From Haloterrigena turkmenica DSM 5511 (GTDB lineage Archaea; Halobacteriota; Halobacteria; Halobacteriales; Natrialbaceae), in contig NC_013743.1 in assembly GCF_000025325.1 (NCBI RefSeq), positions 1,426,001 through 1,490,000 of the forward strand: a stretch of DNA of 64,000 bases, written 5' to 3'. The translations under genes and the position numbers were made by a program. Positions 38,018 to 46,716 of this stretch are shown piece by piece; the stretch's first letter is position 1, and each line of letters begins with the position of its first letter. Below the pieces are notes generated by a model. It did no database searches, was not told the DNA's origin, and was given only the letters and a program-made list of their open reading frames with translations.

Positions 38018-40123
38018 TCAGTCACCCACCGAGTCGGTGTTCGCCGAGGCCGGGAACTCGTCGTCGTCCAGCGCGGCCGCCTCCGACGCGGCCGGTCCGT
38101 CCTCGCTCTCCGGGAAGTAACACGCCGCCCGGTGGCGCTCGTCGCCGGTCTCGTCGATGGCCGGTTCGGCCTCCCGGCACGACTCCTGGGCCTTCGGACA
38201 GCGCGGGGCGAACGCACAGCCCGAGGGGAGGTCGACCGGGTCCGGCGGCTCGCCGTCGAGCAGGACGCGAGTCCGATCCGCGGTCGGGTCCTTCTCCGGC
38301 GCGGCCGACAGCAGCGACGCCGTGTACGGATGCTCGGGGTGGGCAGCGACGCGGTCGACGTCGCCCTCCTCGATGATCCGCCCGAGGTACATGATGGCCA
38401 GCCGATCCGAGACCTGCATCAGGCTCGCGAGGTCGTGGGAGATGTAGACGATCCCGATGTCCTCGGCGTCGGCCAGCCCGCGCAGCAGGTTCAGCAGGTT
38501 GACCTTCAGCGAGACGTCCAGCATCGACGCCGGCTCGTCGCAGATCAGGAAGTCGGGATCCAGCACGAGCGCCTTGGCGACCGCTACGCGCTGGCGCTGC
38601 CCGCCGGAGAGCTCGTGGGGGTAGCTATCGAGGAACTTCTCGGCGGGAGTCAGTCCGACCTTTTCCAATGTCTCGACGATGGCCTGCTCCTTCTCGTCGG
38701 TACGGTAGTCGTGGATCGTCAGCGGCTCGCCGACGAGCTTGCGGACGGTCTGGCGCGGGTTCAGCGAGTCGAAGGGGTCCTGGAAGACGATCTGGACCTT
38801 CCGTCGGAACTCCTGGAGGTTGCCGTCCTGGTAGTACTCGTAGGGTTCCCCGTCGAACGTCAGCTCGCCGCCGGTCGGCTCCTCGAGGAGGGCCATCGTC
38901 TCGCCGAGCGTCGACTTCCCGCAGCCGGACTCGCCGGCGACGCCGAGCACCTCCGAGCGCCGGACCGACAGCGAGACGCCGTCGACCGCTTTCACGTGGT
39001 CGGGGTCCTCGCCCCGGAACTTGTCCAGCAGCGGCTGGCTCTGCTCGTAGTGTTTCTCGAGGTCGTCGGTCTCGAGAATGACCTCGCCGCGACCGGAGTC
39101 GGCGTCGCCCTCGTCGGGGATGCCCCACGTCTCCGGCTCGACGGCGTCTCGGCGCAGCTGAGCCGCCTCCTTGACGCGGTGGCAGGCCGAGCGGTGGTTC
39201 CGATTGGGGAGGTCGACCAGGTCCGGATGCGACTCCCCGCACTCGTCGGTGGCGAACGGACACCGGTCCCGAAACACGCAGGCCGTCGGCTCCCGGTTCA
39301 GGTTCGGCGGCGAGCCGGGGATCGCGACGGGGTCCTCGTCCTCCTCGTCGATCTCCGGGAAGGAGTTCTTCAGCCCCATCGTGTAGGGGTTGGTCGGGTT
39401 GACCAGCACGTTATCGACGCTGCCCTGCTCCATCACCTTCCCGCCGTAGAGGATCGACAGTTCGTCGCAGGTCTCGGCGATGACGCCGATCTCGTGGGTG
39501 ATCAGCAGCAGCGAGCTGTCCATCCGCTCTTGAATCTCCAAGATCTTGTCGATGATCTTGTCCTGGACGATGACGTCCAGCCCGGTCGTCGGCTCGTCGG
39601 CGATAATGAGGTCGGGCTCGAGGGCCAGCGCCATCGCGATGGTGACCCGCTGGCGCATCCCGCCGGAGAACTCGTGTGGATAGTCGTCGATCCGGTCGGG
39701 ATCGAGGCCGACGATCTCGAACAGTTCGCGGACGCGGTCGCGCGCCTTCGCGTCCGTGACGTTGCGGTGGGTGTGGATCGCCTGCGCGATCTGGTCGCCG
39801 GTCGACATCACGGGATCGAGCGAGTCCATCGCGCTCTGGGGGATGTAGGCGATGTCCTCCCAGAGGACGTCCCGGCGCTCGGCCTCCGAGAGGGATGTGA
39901 GGTCCGTTCCGTTGAACTCGATCGTCCCGCTCTCGACGGTGCCGTTGCCGGGGAGTAGCCCCAGCAGCGCCTCCGCGACGGTGGACTTCCCGGAGCCGGA
40001 CTCGCCGGCGAGGCCGTAGTTGACGCCCTCGTCGATACTAAAGGAGACGTCGTTGACGGCGTGGACTGGTTCGTCGTCGGTCGCGTACGTGACTTTCAGG
40101 CTTTCGACGTTGAGTAGCGTCAT
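38018..40123 (-). CDS. Peptide/nickel-type ABC transporter, fused double ATP-binding protein
   Basis: A 701-aa protein that joins the DppD- and DppF-like ATPases. The first half has Walker [10 protein letters not shown] near residue 37, the signature SGGMRQRV, and Walker B LIIADEPT, ending with an oligopeptide C-terminal Cys-rich element ([14 protein letters not shown]). The second half has [17 protein letters not shown] and [12 protein letters not shown], with a similar [14 protein letters not shown] end; these CRDRCP-type ends may bind a cluster or metal. The ATG 40123 overlaps the permease stop by four bases. It energises import with the two permeases upstream. Confidence 0.93.
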
Positions 40124-41040
40124 TGGTCGGTCTGGATTTCGGGGTTGATGACTTCCTCGTAGGCGCGGCCGATGAGGAACACCGAGGTCGTGATCGCGGC
40201 GATACCGATGGCCGGCGGGAGCACCCACCACCACGCGACGCGCATGTTGCCCGACGCGAACACCTGCCGGAGCATCCGGCCCCAGCTGGTCATCGTCGGG
40301 TCGCCGAAGCCGAGGAAGGCGAGGCTCGCCTGCGCGGCGATCGCCCAGGCGACGCCGTAGGCGGTGTAGAGGAACCCGATCGGCAGGACGTTCGGCGCGA
40401 CGTGGTACAGCATCGTCCGCAGGTCGCTCGCGCCGCTGGCTCGAGCGGACTTGACGAACGTCCGCTCGCGGACCGAGAGCACCTCCGAGCGGACGACCCG
40501 CGCCGGCATCTTCCAGAGGAAGGCGGCGATGATCGCCGTGATCAGCCAGATGTTCGGCGTCATGAACGTCAGCAGCAGCAACGCCATGGGCATGAACGGC
40601 AGCGAGAACGTCAGGTCGGTCAGGCGCATCAGGAGTTCGTCGACCCAGCCGCCGTAGTAGCCGCTGACGACGCCGACGGTGAAGCCGAGCGCGCCCGTTC
40701 CCAGCCCGCCGAACAGGCCGACGATGAGCGTCGGCCGCGCGCCGGCGAGGAACTGACTGAGCACGTCCTTCCCGTAGGCCGTCGTTCCGAAGAACGCGTC
40801 CACGCTCGGGGCGGCGAGCCGGAGCACGGAGCCGCCGTCGCCGCGAACGGTGTGTTCGATCGGGTCGTGGGGGGCCAGGTACGGCCCGAACAGCCCGAGG
40901 AAGACGAACGCCCCGACGACGAGCATGCCGGCGAAGGCCATCGGGTCCTGTCGCAGGAACGCGAACTGGTCGCGGACGGTCGTCCACAGTGCGTCGACGC
41001 GCTTGTACAGCTCCGCTTTGGGTTTCGTTTCGGTGCTCAT
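40120..41040 (-). CDS. ABC transporter permease (DppC-like)
   Basis: A 306-aa inner permease with about six hydrophobic segments. GTTAYGKDVLSQFLAGARPTLIVGLFG and the EAA-type loop VKSARASGASDLRTMLYHVAPNVLP are DppC/OppC signatures. It starts at ATG 41040, overlapping the stop of the DppB-like gene, and its own stop overlaps the ATPase start. It forms the second half of the membrane channel of a peptide/nickel-type importer. Confidence 0.93.
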   Translation of the reverse strand: MSTETKPKAELYKRVDALWTTVRDQFAFLRQDPMAFAGMLVVGAFVFLGLFGPYLAPHDPIEHTVRGDGGSVLRLAAPSVDAFFGTTAYGKDVLSQFLAGARPTLIVGLFGGLGTGALGFTVGVVSGYYGGWVDELLMRLTDLTFSLPFMPMALLLLTFMTPNIWLITAIIAAFLWKMPARVVRSEVLSVRERTFVKSARASGASDLRTMLYHVAPNVLPIGFLYTAYGVAWAIAAQASLAFLGFGDPTMTSWGRMLRQVFASGNMRVAWWWVLPPAIGIAAITTSVFLIGRAYEEVINPEIQTDQ

Positions 41041-42032
41041 GCGGATCCACCTCCGCTCGTCGAGACGGTCGGATCGAAGTACGCGTAGAGGACGTCTGCA
41101 AGCAGATTCGCCAGGATAACCGCCAGCGCCATGATGAAGACCGCGGCCTGGACCAGCGGGTAGTCCTGTTGCTGGATGGCCAAGACGAGTTCGCGGCCGA
41201 TACCGGGCCAGCTGAAGACCACCTCGAGCAGGATCAGTCCCTGGAAGATCATCCCCAGTCGCAGCGTGAAGTAGGTCAGGATGGGCAGCATCGAATTGCG
41301 ACCCGCGCGGGCCAGTTGCTCCATCTCAGTGAGTCCCTTCGCCCGGTGGAGCTTGAGGAACTCCGAGCCGCGCTTCTCGACGACGCCGTTGCGGGCCAGC
41401 AGCAGGAAGTCGCCGCTGTAGTAGAGGACGGCGACGGCGAAGGGCAAGAGGTAGTGATGGAGGAAGTCCAGCGAGGCGAACGTCTCGATGTAGCCGTCCG
41501 GCGTCGCCCGGATCGATCGCATCCCGAGCGCCGGGACGATCTCCAGGTTGTACGCGAAGACGATGATGAAGAAGATCGCCGTGATGAACACCGGCGTCGA
41601 GCGCAGCAGCGTCGTCGAGACGATGCTGAACTTCTCGAGGCGGCTCCCGCGGTTCCAGCCGGCGTACATCCCCAGGAGCGAACTCAGGATCGCCGTCGTC
41701 ACCAGCGCGGGCACCAGCAAGATCAGCGAGTTGATCAGCCGCGGCTCGAGGACGTCCCAAACCGGCTGGCTCCGCAGGATGGAGTAGCCGAACTGGAAGG
41801 TCAGCAGGCTCCCGAGGTAGTTGGCGTACTGGACCCAGATCGACTGATCGAGGCCGTACATCGCCCGGATCTCGTCGATCTGTTCCTGGTTTAAGTTCCC
41901 CGAGGTCACGAGCGCCTCGAAGGGGCTCCCCGGCAGGAGCCGCAGGACGACGAAGATGACCGAGACCGCGACCAGCGTCAGCAGGACGGAGATCGCGAGC
42001 CGCTTGAGCAGGAACCGCTGGAACTTCGTCAT
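41037..42032 (-). CDS. ABC transporter permease (DppB-like)
   Basis: A 331-aa permease. The N-terminal FQRFLLKRLAISVLLTLVAVSVIFVVLRLLPGSPFEAL segment, the MYGLDQSIWVQYANYLGSLLTFQFGYS stretch and the EAA loop LKLHRAKGLTEMEQLARAGRNSMLPIL are typical of DppB/OppB. It is located between the binding protein (230 bp upstream) and DppC (4-base overlap). Confidence 0.93.
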   Translation of the reverse strand: MTKFQRFLLKRLAISVLLTLVAVSVIFVVLRLLPGSPFEALVTSGNLNQEQIDEIRAMYGLDQSIWVQYANYLGSLLTFQFGYSILRSQPVWDVLEPRLINSLILLVPALVTTAILSSLLGMYAGWNRGSRLEKFSIVSTTLLRSTPVFITAIFFIIVFAYNLEIVPALGMRSIRATPDGYIETFASLDFLHHYLLPFAVAVLYYSGDFLLLARNGVVEKRGSEFLKLHRAKGLTEMEQLARAGRNSMLPILTYFTLRLGMIFQGLILLEVVFSWPGIGRELVLAIQQQDYPLVQAAVFIMALAVILANLLADVLYAYFDPTVSTSGGGSA

Positions 42033-42107
42033 CGGTTCACCTCCTGAACGATCGACGCGCGGTTCGCTGACCGCGTTGCCCCACGGGTCGCCTTGCGGCG
42101 GTCCGGA

Positions 42108-42179
42108 GTGACACGCTCGACTCGAGTGGTGGGTCGGTTCGGCGTGACACGCTCGACTCGAGCGGTCGGGCGGTCAGTG
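42108..42179. repeat. Two-copy 36-bp direct repeat between binding protein and permease genes
   Basis: The first 19 bases, GTGACACGCTCGACTCGAG, occur at 42108 and again at 42144, and further positions also match within the 36-bp period. The 229-bp gap that holds it separates the binding protein gene from the permease genes. I see no hairpin-T-run terminator, so the repeat may affect read-through or processing. Confidence 0.6.
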
Positions 42180-42261: not shown

Positions 42262-44172
42262 TCATGAGAAGTCGGGCTGGCCGAGCTCCGAGCGGCGTTT
42301 GTGGGTGTTCTCGGGCTGAATGCGGTCGACGAACGCGCCCCACGCCTCGCCGTTGGGGAACCGCAGGTTGCCGTCGTCGTCCCAGGTGTAGCCCGCGCGC
42401 TCGAGGACGTTCCGGGCTTCCTCGACGTCGTAACTGTAGTCGGTCGTGTCGGCGTTGTGCCACTGGGTGAGCGACGAGATCGGGTTCTCGCCGGCCGGCA
42501 CCGTCGCCTGCCCGTCGAGGAAGTCGTCGACGAACCCCTGCGAGTCGACCGCTTTCGCCAGTGCGACGCGGAACTCCTTGTCCCTGATCGGCGGACAGGA
42601 GAACATGAGCTTCGTGTCGAGCGGCGCGTAGCTCCCGGTCGACAGCTTCTCGATCCCGTCCGTGTTGGCCGCCCGGTCGGCCTGCAGGGTCGAGAGGGTC
42701 GTCCCGATGGCGTCGATCGATCCGCTCTGGAGCGAGCCGATCAGCGCGTCGACGTTGCTCACGTTGATCCAGATGACGCTCTCGATGCCGGGGCCGCGCT
42801 CGGCCTGCTCGCCGAGGGCGTCGGCCCGCCAGTCGTCGTCGAACATCCAGTGGTCGTCGTTGCGCGTGGCCTCGAATCGGGTCCCCTGCTCCCAGTTCTC
42901 GAACTGGAAGGGGCCGGTGCCAACGGGGGCGTCCGGGTTGTGCTGCGACGGGTTGTCGACGTCCTCCCACCGGTGTTTCGGGAGGATGACGCTCCGGACG
43001 ACCCGTTGGGTCATGAACGAGGCGTCGGGGTTCGACAGCTCGAACCGGACCTCGTGGTCCCCGAGTACCTCGACGGACTCGATCGGCTCGTAGAACGGGA
43101 CCTGACTCGTGGAGGAGTACTCCTTGTACAGTTCGACGGTGAACTTCACGTCCTCGGCGGTGAACGCCTCGCCGTCGTGCCACTCGACGCCCTCGCGCAG
43201 CGTGAGTTCGACGGTCGTGTCGTCGACGAAATCGCCGCCGGTCGCCAGTGCGGGGGCCACGTCCAAATCGGGCGTCGCGTCGAATAACCCGTCGTAGATG
43301 AACGTAAGTCGATTGGCCTCCGCGCCGCCGGCGGCCCACGGCAGGTTCAGCGAGTTCATCGACGTGGTGACGCCCTTGACGTAGGTCCGGTTGTCCGTCT
43401 CGGGCTGGAGGTTGACCTCCGTCCAGACGAACGAGTCCATCGTCGGGCCGTTCCCCGGCGTCTCCACGTAGCCGGTCCATCGGTCCGTGTTCACCGCCGT
43501 GATGATCTCCGGGAAGAGCGTGATGAGCGCCCCGACGTCCTCGGCGAAGAGTTCCTGTGCCCGGTCGACGAGCTCCTCGCGTTCGGCCCGATCGGTCGTC
43601 TGGGCCTGCTCGGTGAGCACCTCCTGGAGTTCCGGATGGTAGTAGTTATCGTAGTTCGAGAGCGAGCCCTCGGTCCGCCGCATCAACAGCGGGTTCGGAT
43701 CGAGCCCCCGCTGCGGGTCCGGTCCGTGCGTACTCATCGAGACGATCGCCTCGAGTCCGCGCGTTTCCCAGCTCTGGGCGTACAGCTGATTCAGCGGACG
43801 GTCGTTGAGTTCGACGGCGATACCCAAATCGCCGAGCCCCCGCTTGACCATCAACGCGTGTTCGCGCATCCACGGGTCGTCCTCGCTCGAGAACTCGACG
43901 GGGAACCGATCGAGCACCGCACCGGCCGTCGCGCTGTACTCCAGTGGCGGCGAGTCGGCGTCGATCGTCTCCCACTCGCGCCAGTACTGCGTCTCGACCG
44001 TTTCCGGTACCCCATCGGGCGCGTCCGGCTCGAGGCTGGTGCCGCGACTGCCGCTACAGCCCGCGAGCACGCTCGTCCCGAGCGCCGCGGCGGCCGTGGC
44101 GACGTAGCCGCGTCGCGTGAGTCGGTCACCTCCCTCGGTGGCCGATCCATCATGATTTTCTTTGGTCGTCAT
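42262..44172 (-). CDS. Peptide-type ABC substrate-binding protein with circularly permuted lobes
   Basis: A 636-aa exported lipoprotein: RRGYVATAAAALGTSVLAGC is a Tat-type signal with lipobox Cys at 39. The family (SBP_bac_5) normally runs from an N-terminal lobe with Y-x-G-L and V-x-F-H-D-G, to a C-terminal lobe. Here residues about 60-260 (LGDLGIAVELNDRPL; YYHPELQEVLTEQAQTTDRAEREELVDRAQELFAEDV) look like the usual C-terminal end. What normally stands at the N-terminus (LTFIYDGLFDATPDL, VEWHDGEAFTAEDVKFT) only begins near residue 280, and the protein stops shortly after EEARNVLERAGYTWDDDG. It is the first gene of the transporter set. The ligand is unknown. Confidence 0.85.
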   Translation of the reverse strand: MTTKENHDGSATEGGDRLTRRGYVATAAAALGTSVLAGCSGSRGTSLEPDAPDGVPETVETQYWREWETIDADSPPLEYSATAGAVLDRFPVEFSSEDDPWMREHALMVKRGLGDLGIAVELNDRPLNQLYAQSWETRGLEAIVSMSTHGPDPQRGLDPNPLLMRRTEGSLSNYDNYYHPELQEVLTEQAQTTDRAEREELVDRAQELFAEDVGALITLFPEIITAVNTDRWTGYVETPGNGPTMDSFVWTEVNLQPETDNRTYVKGVTTSMNSLNLPWAAGGAEANRLTFIYDGLFDATPDLDVAPALATGGDFVDDTTVELTLREGVEWHDGEAFTAEDVKFTVELYKEYSSTSQVPFYEPIESVEVLGDHEVRFELSNPDASFMTQRVVRSVILPKHRWEDVDNPSQHNPDAPVGTGPFQFENWEQGTRFEATRNDDHWMFDDDWRADALGEQAERGPGIESVIWINVSNVDALIGSLQSGSIDAIGTTLSTLQADRAANTDGIEKLSTGSYAPLDTKLMFSCPPIRDKEFRVALAKAVDSQGFVDDFLDGQATVPAGENPISSLTQWHNADTTDYSYDVEEARNVLERAGYTWDDDGNLRFPNGEAWGAFVDRIQPENTHKRRSELGQPDFS

Positions 44173-44297: not shown

Positions 44298-44948
44298 TCA
44301 CTCTCGCGGACCGTAGATGAGTTCGAGGAGGGTTCGCTCCGCGGTCCGTAATCGTTCGCTCGCCGTCGACTGCGCGATCTCGAGTTCGTCGGCGAGTTCG
44401 GTCGCCGACGTCTCTCGCGGGATGTCGAAGTAGCCGTTCTCGTAAGCCGTCTCGAGGACTGCCAACTGCTCGTCGGTGAGCTTCGAGACGAGGACTTCGG
44501 TCAATCGTCCGCTGTCGAGCGGTTCGCCGGGGTCCTCGTTCTGGGTGACCGACAGCAGTTCGAACTCGCCGAGGGTCTCCTGGACCTCGTCGGCCATCGC
44601 CCGGAACTGATCCCAGTCGCGGGTCGTCACCACGGCCTCGAAATCGTCGTTCTGGAGGACGATCCGGTTCGGAATCGCCTCCTGTCGCAGGACGAGACTC
44701 AGGATGAACGGATACGATTCGTTGGCCAGGATCGTCAGCCGGCGAATCTCGAGGTCGTCCGACGCGGTCGGGATCTCGCTATCGTAGAACAGCGACACGC
44801 CGGAGATCTCCTCGACGACGGCTTCCGGATCGAACTCGGCGTTCGACGTGACGGTCAGAGACTCGATCCACGTCCCGTCTTCGACGTAGAACGCGTTGTC
44901 GAGCTCGATGCTCCGGACGTCGTCCAGCTCCCGCCGGAGCTTTGCCAT
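44298..44948 (-). CDS. HTH_10 (bacterio-opsin activator type) transcription regulator
   Basis: A 216-aa protein with a sensor-like N-terminal part and a C-terminal HTH_10 domain: LTDEQLAVLETAYENGYFDIPRETSATELADELEIAQSTASERLRTAERTLLELIYG (about residues 158-214). This is a classic haloarchaeal layout. The start is ATG 44948, or GTG 44951. In-frame upstream codons (ILRIEFTTAPTGV) look coding but have no start codon before a stop. It is transcribed in the same direction as the transporter set and 125 bp upstream of the binding protein, so it may be its regulator. Confidence 0.82.
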   Translation of the reverse strand: MAKLRRELDDVRSIELDNAFYVEDGTWIESLTVTSNAEFDPEAVVEEISGVSLFYDSEIPTASDDLEIRRLTILANESYPFILSLVLRQEAIPNRIVLQNDDFEAVVTTRDWDQFRAMADEVQETLGEFELLSVTQNEDPGEPLDSGRLTEVLVSKLTDEQLAVLETAYENGYFDIPRETSATELADELEIAQSTASERLRTAERTLLELIYGPRE

Positions 44949-45055
44949 CACGCCAGTCGGCGCCGTCGTGAACTCGATGCGTAGAATTGGCGACCCTCCC
45001 TACGGGGAAGAGTCCGACCCGTTCATATATACCTCACGCTTATCGCGATCGGTTG

Positions 45056-46543
45056 TCAGCCCACTAACGGCCAGTAGACGAGCCACGAGGCGGCGGCGAC
45101 ACCGACGGCGAGCATCATCGTCACGAGGCCAAAGGAGGCGACATCGCGGTGCGACAGCGGTCCGCGGTCCATCGACACCAGCACCGCGGTCGTGTTGAAC
45201 GGGAGAATCGTCGTCGAGCCGACGACCAGCAACACGGTCAGCGCCAGATACAATCGGTTGACGTCGAAGACGGCCGCGAGCTCGAGGACGATCGGCAGCG
45301 CGACCACGATCGCCGCCGAGCCGGTCGAGAACAGAATCCGAATTCCGACGGCCAGGGCGATCAACACCGCGACGAGCTGCCACTGGGCGAGCGCCGCGAA
45401 CGGGATCCACCGCGTGAGGGCGTCGACGATCGCCACGATGGCGCCGGTCGTCTCCAACACGTCGAGAATCGACAACATCGCGCCGACGAGGAAGATGATC
45501 CCCCAGTTGACCCCCGCGATATCGTCGGCCGTGATGATGCCGACCTGAGGTAGCGAGAGCACGACGACCGCGGCGACCGCCGGGAGCACCGTGGGAATCC
45601 CGACGAACGAGCCGCCGATCCAGCCCGCGATGGCGCCCAGAAGGACGAGCGCGACGAGACGCTGGTCTCGAGTCAGCGAGGGCGATCCGTCGCCGTCCGT
45701 CTCCAGTTGCGGTTCGTCGACATCTGTCCTCGGTTCGGTCCCCTCCCCGTCCGCCTCGAGTCGCGTCCCGGCGGTTGCGCCGAGCGTCGTCTCGCCGTCG
45801 ACAGCCGCGAACAGGCCCGCACAGAGCGTCGCCGCCGCGTACAGGGCGATCGTCGGCGGCAGCATCAACACGGCCCAGTCGACCCAGGTGATCGGCCGCA
45901 CCGAGGTCGCGATAATCTCGGAGGTGACCAGCGCCATGCCGCCGCCGGTCATCAGCGCCATCGACCCGATCGGGTTGACGTGACCGAGGACGAGAAACGC
46001 CCCGGTTTCGAAGCCGTCGTCGCCCGCGCCGAACGCGGCCGCGAGCCGCTTCACGATCGGGATGAACGTTACCGCGCGCGCCATCGCCGACGGCATCACC
46101 AGCGCCAGCGCGAGGACGCTCCCGGCGACCGAGCGCAACGCGCGCCGCGGCGTGCTCTCCGCCGTCAGCAGTCGGCGCGCCAGCCGCCGGTCGAGACCGA
46201 CGCTCGTCGTCGCGTCGCCGAGCAGCAACAGGAGCAGCAAGAAGAAGACGAGCGTTGACGTAAAGCCCGTCGCGGCCGCGTCGAACGAATCGACCGTCTC
46301 CAGCGCGAACAGTAACGTGACGCTGAGCACGCTCGAGACGACGTACGGAATCGGACGCGTCAGCCACAGGACGAGCGCCGACGCGAAGACCGCCAGCGCG
46401 CGTTGTCCCGCGACGGTCACCGCCGCCGGAGGAGGAACCATCGTCCCGACCGCGAGGATGGCAGCGGCCGCGAGCAGCCCCAGGAATTGCCGCGACGTGA
46501 GCGTCGTCTCCGTCCCTGCCCGCGCATCGTCCCGATCAGCCAT
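45056..46543 (-). CDS. SLC13/DASS family anion transporter
   Basis: A 495-aa membrane protein with a dozen or so hydrophobic segments, of the divalent anion:Na+ symporter type. TRPIPYVVSSVLSV (near 62-75), GHVNPIGSMALMTGGGMALVTSEII (about 187-211) and STTILPFNTTAVL in the second half correspond to the SNT-like hairpin motifs that bind Na+ and substrate. A long acidic loop (about residues 255-280) lies between the halves. Substrates may be dicarboxylates, sulfate or phosphate. The start is ATG 46543 (MADRDDARAG). Confidence 0.86.
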   Translation of the reverse strand: MADRDDARAGTETTLTSRQFLGLLAAAAILAVGTMVPPPAAVTVAGQRALAVFASALVLWLTRPIPYVVSSVLSVTLLFALETVDSFDAAATGFTSTLVFFLLLLLLLGDATTSVGLDRRLARRLLTAESTPRRALRSVAGSVLALALVMPSAMARAVTFIPIVKRLAAAFGAGDDGFETGAFLVLGHVNPIGSMALMTGGGMALVTSEIIATSVRPITWVDWAVLMLPPTIALYAAATLCAGLFAAVDGETTLGATAGTRLEADGEGTEPRTDVDEPQLETDGDGSPSLTRDQRLVALVLLGAIAGWIGGSFVGIPTVLPAVAAVVVLSLPQVGIITADDIAGVNWGIIFLVGAMLSILDVLETTGAIVAIVDALTRWIPFAALAQWQLVAVLIALAVGIRILFSTGSAAIVVALPIVLELAAVFDVNRLYLALTVLLVVGSTTILPFNTTAVLVSMDRGPLSHRDVASFGLVTMMLAVGVAAASWLVYWPLVG

Positions 46544-46716
46544 TACCAGCACCGTCGTCGGTTCCGGTGAAGAAGCTGGTGACACCGCGGTCGAGAACGA
46601 AGCGGGACAGCGTTGCCGCTAGAAACGAGTCGTTACCGGGTCGGAGCGGACGCGAGCACTACGAATGAGCCCGAGGGAGCCAGCCCAGGGTGTCACCCCC
46701 GACCGCTACCGCGCCG

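Follow-up and report, generated by a model that had tools for sequence, protein, structure and literature searches.

A circularly permuted SBP_bac_5-type lipoprotein as the probable receptor of a haloarchaeal Opp/Dpp-type importer

Few prokaryotic uptake proteins are as common as the cluster C receptors, and both domain models and annotation presuppose a single segment order for them. A naturally permuted binding protein has been described in a different cluster: TpMglB-2 (Tp0684) of Treponema pallidum is a permuted type I / cluster B sugar solute-binding protein (SBP), designated 'Type Ic', and its authors propose that the permutation is linked to membrane tethering (PMC4990184). OpuAC/ProX was considered as a possible further precedent; the one paper we consulted gave no confirmation, and the example was dropped. 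A search of the open literature, with subscription papers outside its scope, returned no description of a permuted cluster C receptor, and the 60 best PDB matches contained no permuted chain, all 60 being in normal order.

The gene described here, labeled P0001, lies at 42262..44172 of a 64,000-nt window of the Haloterrigena turkmenica DSM 5511 chromosome (NC_013743.1, positions 1,426,001 to 1,490,000). The coordinates given in an earlier note on this DNA are correct; the reading direction is that of the minus strand (44172->42262). Its one open frame, together with its orthologues and profile comparison, identifies a permuted SBP_bac_5-type solute-binding lipoprotein of 636 aa. Like DppA, OppA, AppA, and NikA of the type II / cluster C SBP_bac_5 group, P0001 is homologous across both lobes and belongs to an operon type with OppB, OppC, and OppD/F; unlike them, it has a permuted segment order, with new termini within the C-lobe. 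It resembles TpMglB-2 in being a naturally permuted binding lipoprotein of an ABC importer, built as a single chain whose permuted order is kept in homologues, but differs from that sugar-binding cluster B protein in belonging to cluster C, in the position of the cut, and in having non-lipidated permuted relatives. We put the probability at roughly 0.9 that P0001 acts as a working lipid-anchored receptor of an Opp/Dpp-type importer with a permuted SBP_bac_5 (type II / cluster C) fold.

P0001 scores 187 bits against the Pfam SBP_bac_5 profile (PF00496; gathering cut-off 32.4), which places it in the family. The aligned stretch covers residues 305-604 and profile positions 2-287 of 368, and the last ~80 profile positions are absent after residue 604. 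When a profile of 19 P0001 orthologues was compared by hhalign with a profile of 6 normal-order haloarchaeal SBPs, the native order gave two crossed matches, query 177-577 to template 1-367 (E 3.5e-35) and query 1-208 to template 297-503 (E 9.6e-8), instead of the canonical run from N-lobe to C-lobe. Rotation at the native junction merged them into a single match of 475 columns (template 11-503, E 1.7e-42) in which both lobes are present, while rotation at a wrong cut brought back two matches. A permuted-family profile built from 25 diverse relatives gave the same picture with solved structures: its positions 224-558 fall on residues 23-346 of AppA (1xoc; E 1.5e-62), its positions 44-203 on AppA 354-506 (E 1.5e-15), and DppA (1dpp) shows the same crossed pattern.

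A HMMER rotation scan with P0001 as a single sequence gained just 0.3 bits, because its orthologue group carries extra sequence at both termini (~50 residues ahead of the C-lobe part, 24 beyond the cut). This sequence is missing from most of the diverged relatives, which gained ~18-76 bits at one rotation point; the exceptions are a few proteins whose junction holds a long additional or anchor segment. The controls, E. coli DppA, OppA, and GsiB with other normal SBPs, scored best at or near zero rotation. The earlier note had suspected that the segments stood in the wrong order, read this as a circular permutation, and named profile alignment as a check; the collapse of two crossed matches into one, together with the conserved order in 19 or more further species and in a whole permuted clade (see below), confirms the permutation at the level of sequence comparison. 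P0001 is, on these alignments, a permuted variant of SBP_bac_5 and not a canonical member.

The segments of P0001 can be followed along the minus strand. Residues 1-39 (44056..44172) carry, by motif, a Tat-type signal (TRRGYV) and the lipobox LAGC, whose Cys39 would be the lipidated residue; in the orthologue alignment the RR of the signal is nearly invariant and the lipobox Cys invariant. A leader follows at residues 40-87 (43912..44055), with the conserved pattern W..W.T.D...P...Y in an orthologue alignment, and is peculiar to P0001's own orthologue group. Residues 88-261 (43390..43911) correspond by hhalign to the C-lobe half that ends the chain in normal SBPs. The earlier note had recognized this part and placed it at residues 60-260; its presence holds, and its limits are better drawn at ~88-261, residues 40-87 being the group-specific leader. 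Alignment of rotated proteins places a short bridge between the ancestral C- and N-termini at approximately residues 258-263 (43384..43401). The N-lobe and the first C-lobe part, corresponding to PF00496 positions 2-287, then extend over residues 264-612 (42337..43383; Pfam and hhalign), and residues 613-636 (42265..42336) form a new C-terminal tail past a cut in a beta-hairpin turn, which the orthologue alignment shows to be conserved in P0001's orthologues only and to end in ..DFS.

We propose that the ancestral N- and C-termini were fused through this bridge and that new termini opened in the C-lobe hairpin turn, right behind '..LLEEAGY..DGxLxYP'. A likely route would be tandem duplication, after which the outer halves were lost and a signal peptide was gained anew. 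The permuted chain would still fold as the usual two-lobed flytrap. A permuted P0001 could instead form a domain-swapped dimer or oligomer whose cleft is built from halves of two chains: such a swap is topologically interchangeable with permutation, and only a short bridge links the old termini, with ~11-19 residues separating the aligned positions in most rotated proteins. Adjacent termini in one chain fit a short bridge too, however, and the permuted SBP TpMglB-2 retains ligand binding and ligand-induced closure (PMC4990184), so that we regard a swapped assembly as improbable. An AlphaFold model of P0001 from 19 close orthologues had a pLDDT of 35.7, too low to bear on the fold.

Judged by the domains described for a cluster C protein (PMC7312458), the cut lies in Domain III, so the lipid anchor of P0001 would have moved to the other lobe and would sit on the C-lobe, no longer on the N-lobe side. 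With such a shift, an altered presentation of the receptor by its anchor, as the earlier note suggested, is plausible. In DppA, R383 and D436 clamp the dipeptide by its termini (PMC12136057). The aligned columns hold V and R in P0001, where the alignment near R383 is uncertain; unlike in DppA, neither residue is conserved, which makes a canonical dipeptide an unlikely ligand. The ligand of P0001 is probably not of this kind, and the earlier label 'peptide-binding' is unsupported.

The neighbors of P0001 are those of an Opp/Dpp-type importer, with two BPD_transp_1 permeases and oligo_HPY ATPases adjoining it. All are on the minus strand: an HTH_10 (bat-type) regulator upstream (44298..44951) and, downstream, an OppB/DppB-type permease (BPD_transp_1; 41037..42032), an OppC/DppC-type permease (BPD_transp_1, OppC_N; 40120..41040), and a fused OppD-OppF ATPase with two ABC_tran and two oligo_HPY stretches (38018..40123). 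The five genes, regulator, SBP, OppB, OppC, and OppDF, were present in each of the 19 homologous loci compared (19/19), the SBP gene standing upstream of OppB, OppC, and the fused OppDF. The product of P0001 would be exported by the Tat route, anchored by its lipid, and serve as solute receptor, binding solute in its cleft and docking on OppB-OppC. A sensor or storage lipoprotein that has lost its transport role is quite unlikely: the paralogues L025, L027, and L029 are not accompanied by their own transporter genes, which would suit such a role, whereas P0001 is the first gene of an SBP-permease-permease-ATPase cluster at 19/19 loci.

The operon has further features. OppD and OppF form one polypeptide, encoded at 19/19 loci, and the ATG of its gene overlaps the oppC stop. 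A Na_sulph_symp/CitMHS-type transporter beside the regulator (window 45056-46585) is kept in 16/19 loci and may offer a clue to the kind of substrate. The stretch that separates the SBP gene from oppB holds, at window 42094-42165, two head-to-tail 36-base units that are 86% identical and contain CTCGACTCGAG, possibly a regulatory or mRNA element.

An alternative reading takes residues ~40-260 of P0001 as an unrelated extra domain ahead of a complete or shortened SBP. Pfam finds just one SBP_bac_5 stretch, and in a plain PDB search the second stretch of P0001, whose C-lobe is its more divergent half, came up only below threshold. Residues 88-265 alone, however, match the normal C-lobe end (template 327-501, hhalign probability 95.8%, E 7.4e-9), and the permuted-family profile fits solved C-lobes with E-values between 1e-15 and 1e-18. 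No C-lobe end stands behind the N-lobe of P0001: as the earlier note had said of the missing C-terminal part, no second C-lobe lies downstream, where 229 bases lead to oppB. The opening part shares homology with the C-lobe that the remainder lacks; at the sequence level, therefore, the case that the earlier note had named as refuting a permutation, an unrelated first domain followed by a complete SBP, fails. We consider an extra domain very unlikely indeed.

Full-length colinear orthologues with 63-93% identity occur in at least 19 other haloarchaeal species, in the genera Haloterrigena, Natrinema, Natrialba, Natronococcus, Haloarcula, Haloferax, Halorussus, and Halocatena. Conservation of order in haloarchaeal homologues had been named as a check on the permutation, and the same order across these species excludes an assembly error. 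Mis-joined contigs or a chimera from halves of two adjacent SBP genes could produce a like crossed homology in one genome, but with 19 genome records, independent of one another and spread over several haloarchaeal families, identical in order over the full length, four more permuted SBPs in the H. turkmenica genome, and many elsewhere, the chance of such an artefact is negligible.

Beside these four (L023, L025, L027, and L029), the H. turkmenica genome holds eleven normal SBPs; in two of the four, a single frame carries Pfam positions 287/290-362 upstream of 1-286. L025, L027, and L029 (L099, L100, and L101; G000:C1:893 kb, 1082 kb, and 1326 kb) are permuted SBP lipoproteins without adjacent opp genes of their own, and L025 is convergent with the complete L023 operon. 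At least 88 of the 194 sampled Halobacteria genomes have a match that spans the permuted profile in full, defined as running from profile position <=36 to >=538. Elsewhere in the phylum most matches cover the N-lobe alone, with permuted proteins in four genomes of one family. One permuted SBP of another family in the phylum (L058:833-2596) ends in a PGF.. segment, a transmembrane stretch, and RRRR, which suggests a C-terminal membrane anchor in place of the N-terminal lipid.

The bacterial spread is known from plasmids only, with permuted SBPs in Nitratireductor, Maritalea, Ketogulonicigenium, Roseomonas, Microvirga, and Neorhizobium; in the first four, the permuted SBP is directly upstream of permease and ATPase genes. 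Inspection by eye found no lipobox in the permuted alphaproteobacterial plasmid proteins, which look like soluble periplasmic proteins, and since such permuted bacterial forms lack a lipobox, tethering cannot be the general cause of permutation. Viral contigs searched with a single relative gave no match. Members of the permuted clade are annotated simply as 'ABC transporter substrate-binding protein'.

The permutation probably arose more than once. We built trees of 73 sequences, several of them on long branches, from N-lobe and C-lobe columns. In the N-lobe tree the permuted proteins require at least four changes. Its main permuted clade (32 proteins, support 100/98) includes P0001 and joins Halobacteria with Alphaproteobacteria, and the permuted arrangement would be ancestral to this large clade. 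The permuted L023 and L044 are instead sisters of the normal-order L092 (100/100), and L058-L061 and the long-branched L029 stand apart as well; the C-lobe tree has the same outline with weaker support. A single clade of all permuted proteins was rejected (AU p = 2e-69) with L029 left out for its very long branch. Joining the main clade with L058-L061 was rejected weakly (p = 0.026), and the independence of this third group rests on that value and a small sample.

A close contrast is that between L023 (G000:C1:900380), a permuted orthologue, and L092 (G043:C1:893300-894919), a haloarchaeal SBP in normal order. Their crossed segments are 47% and 40% identical, and their operons are orthologous, with OppB, OppC, OppD, and OppF 65-66% identical, yet one receptor is permuted and the other normal. 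Normal L092-like proteins occur in genera of one family (f5), and L023-type matches, judged from the N-lobe part only, mainly in another (f1). In a third haloarchaeal family, an L092-type SBP (G142:C15:21988-23616) is permuted too: a single 627-aa frame has the C-lobe piece immediately upstream of the N-lobe piece, with identities of 49-50%. The breakpoints, given as Pfam positions, also differ: ~284-287 in the main clade (~287 in P0001), 279 in L059, and ~257 in L044, a close relative of L023, so that the cut of the L023 type is not that of P0001. All fall inside one helix/beta-hairpin of the C-lobe.

From the trees and breakpoints we conclude that a minimum of two and probably three independent events took place at a favored C-lobe site, an inference made after the data were seen. 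Outside the main clade, one or more further haloarchaeal SBP lineages would then have undergone a similar permutation of their own, as would, probably, a lineage elsewhere in the phylum. That cluster C permutation is recurrent in archaea, with at least two and probably three events in the same small C-lobe region, and that permuted and normal receptors serve orthologous transporters, seems to us likely, with room for doubt.

The permuted clade separates what a cluster C receptor needs, two lobes, a hinge, and docking faces, from where its chain starts. Permuted cluster C SBPs also offer a direct test of the tethering proposal made for TpMglB-2, in a comparable set that comprises permuted lipoproteins, soluble permuted periplasmic forms, an apparently C-terminally anchored form, and a permuted/normal pair in orthologous operons. 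If recurrent permutation is true, receptor topology would be an evolvable trait, and pairs of the L023/L092 type would be a natural experiment on why topology changes.
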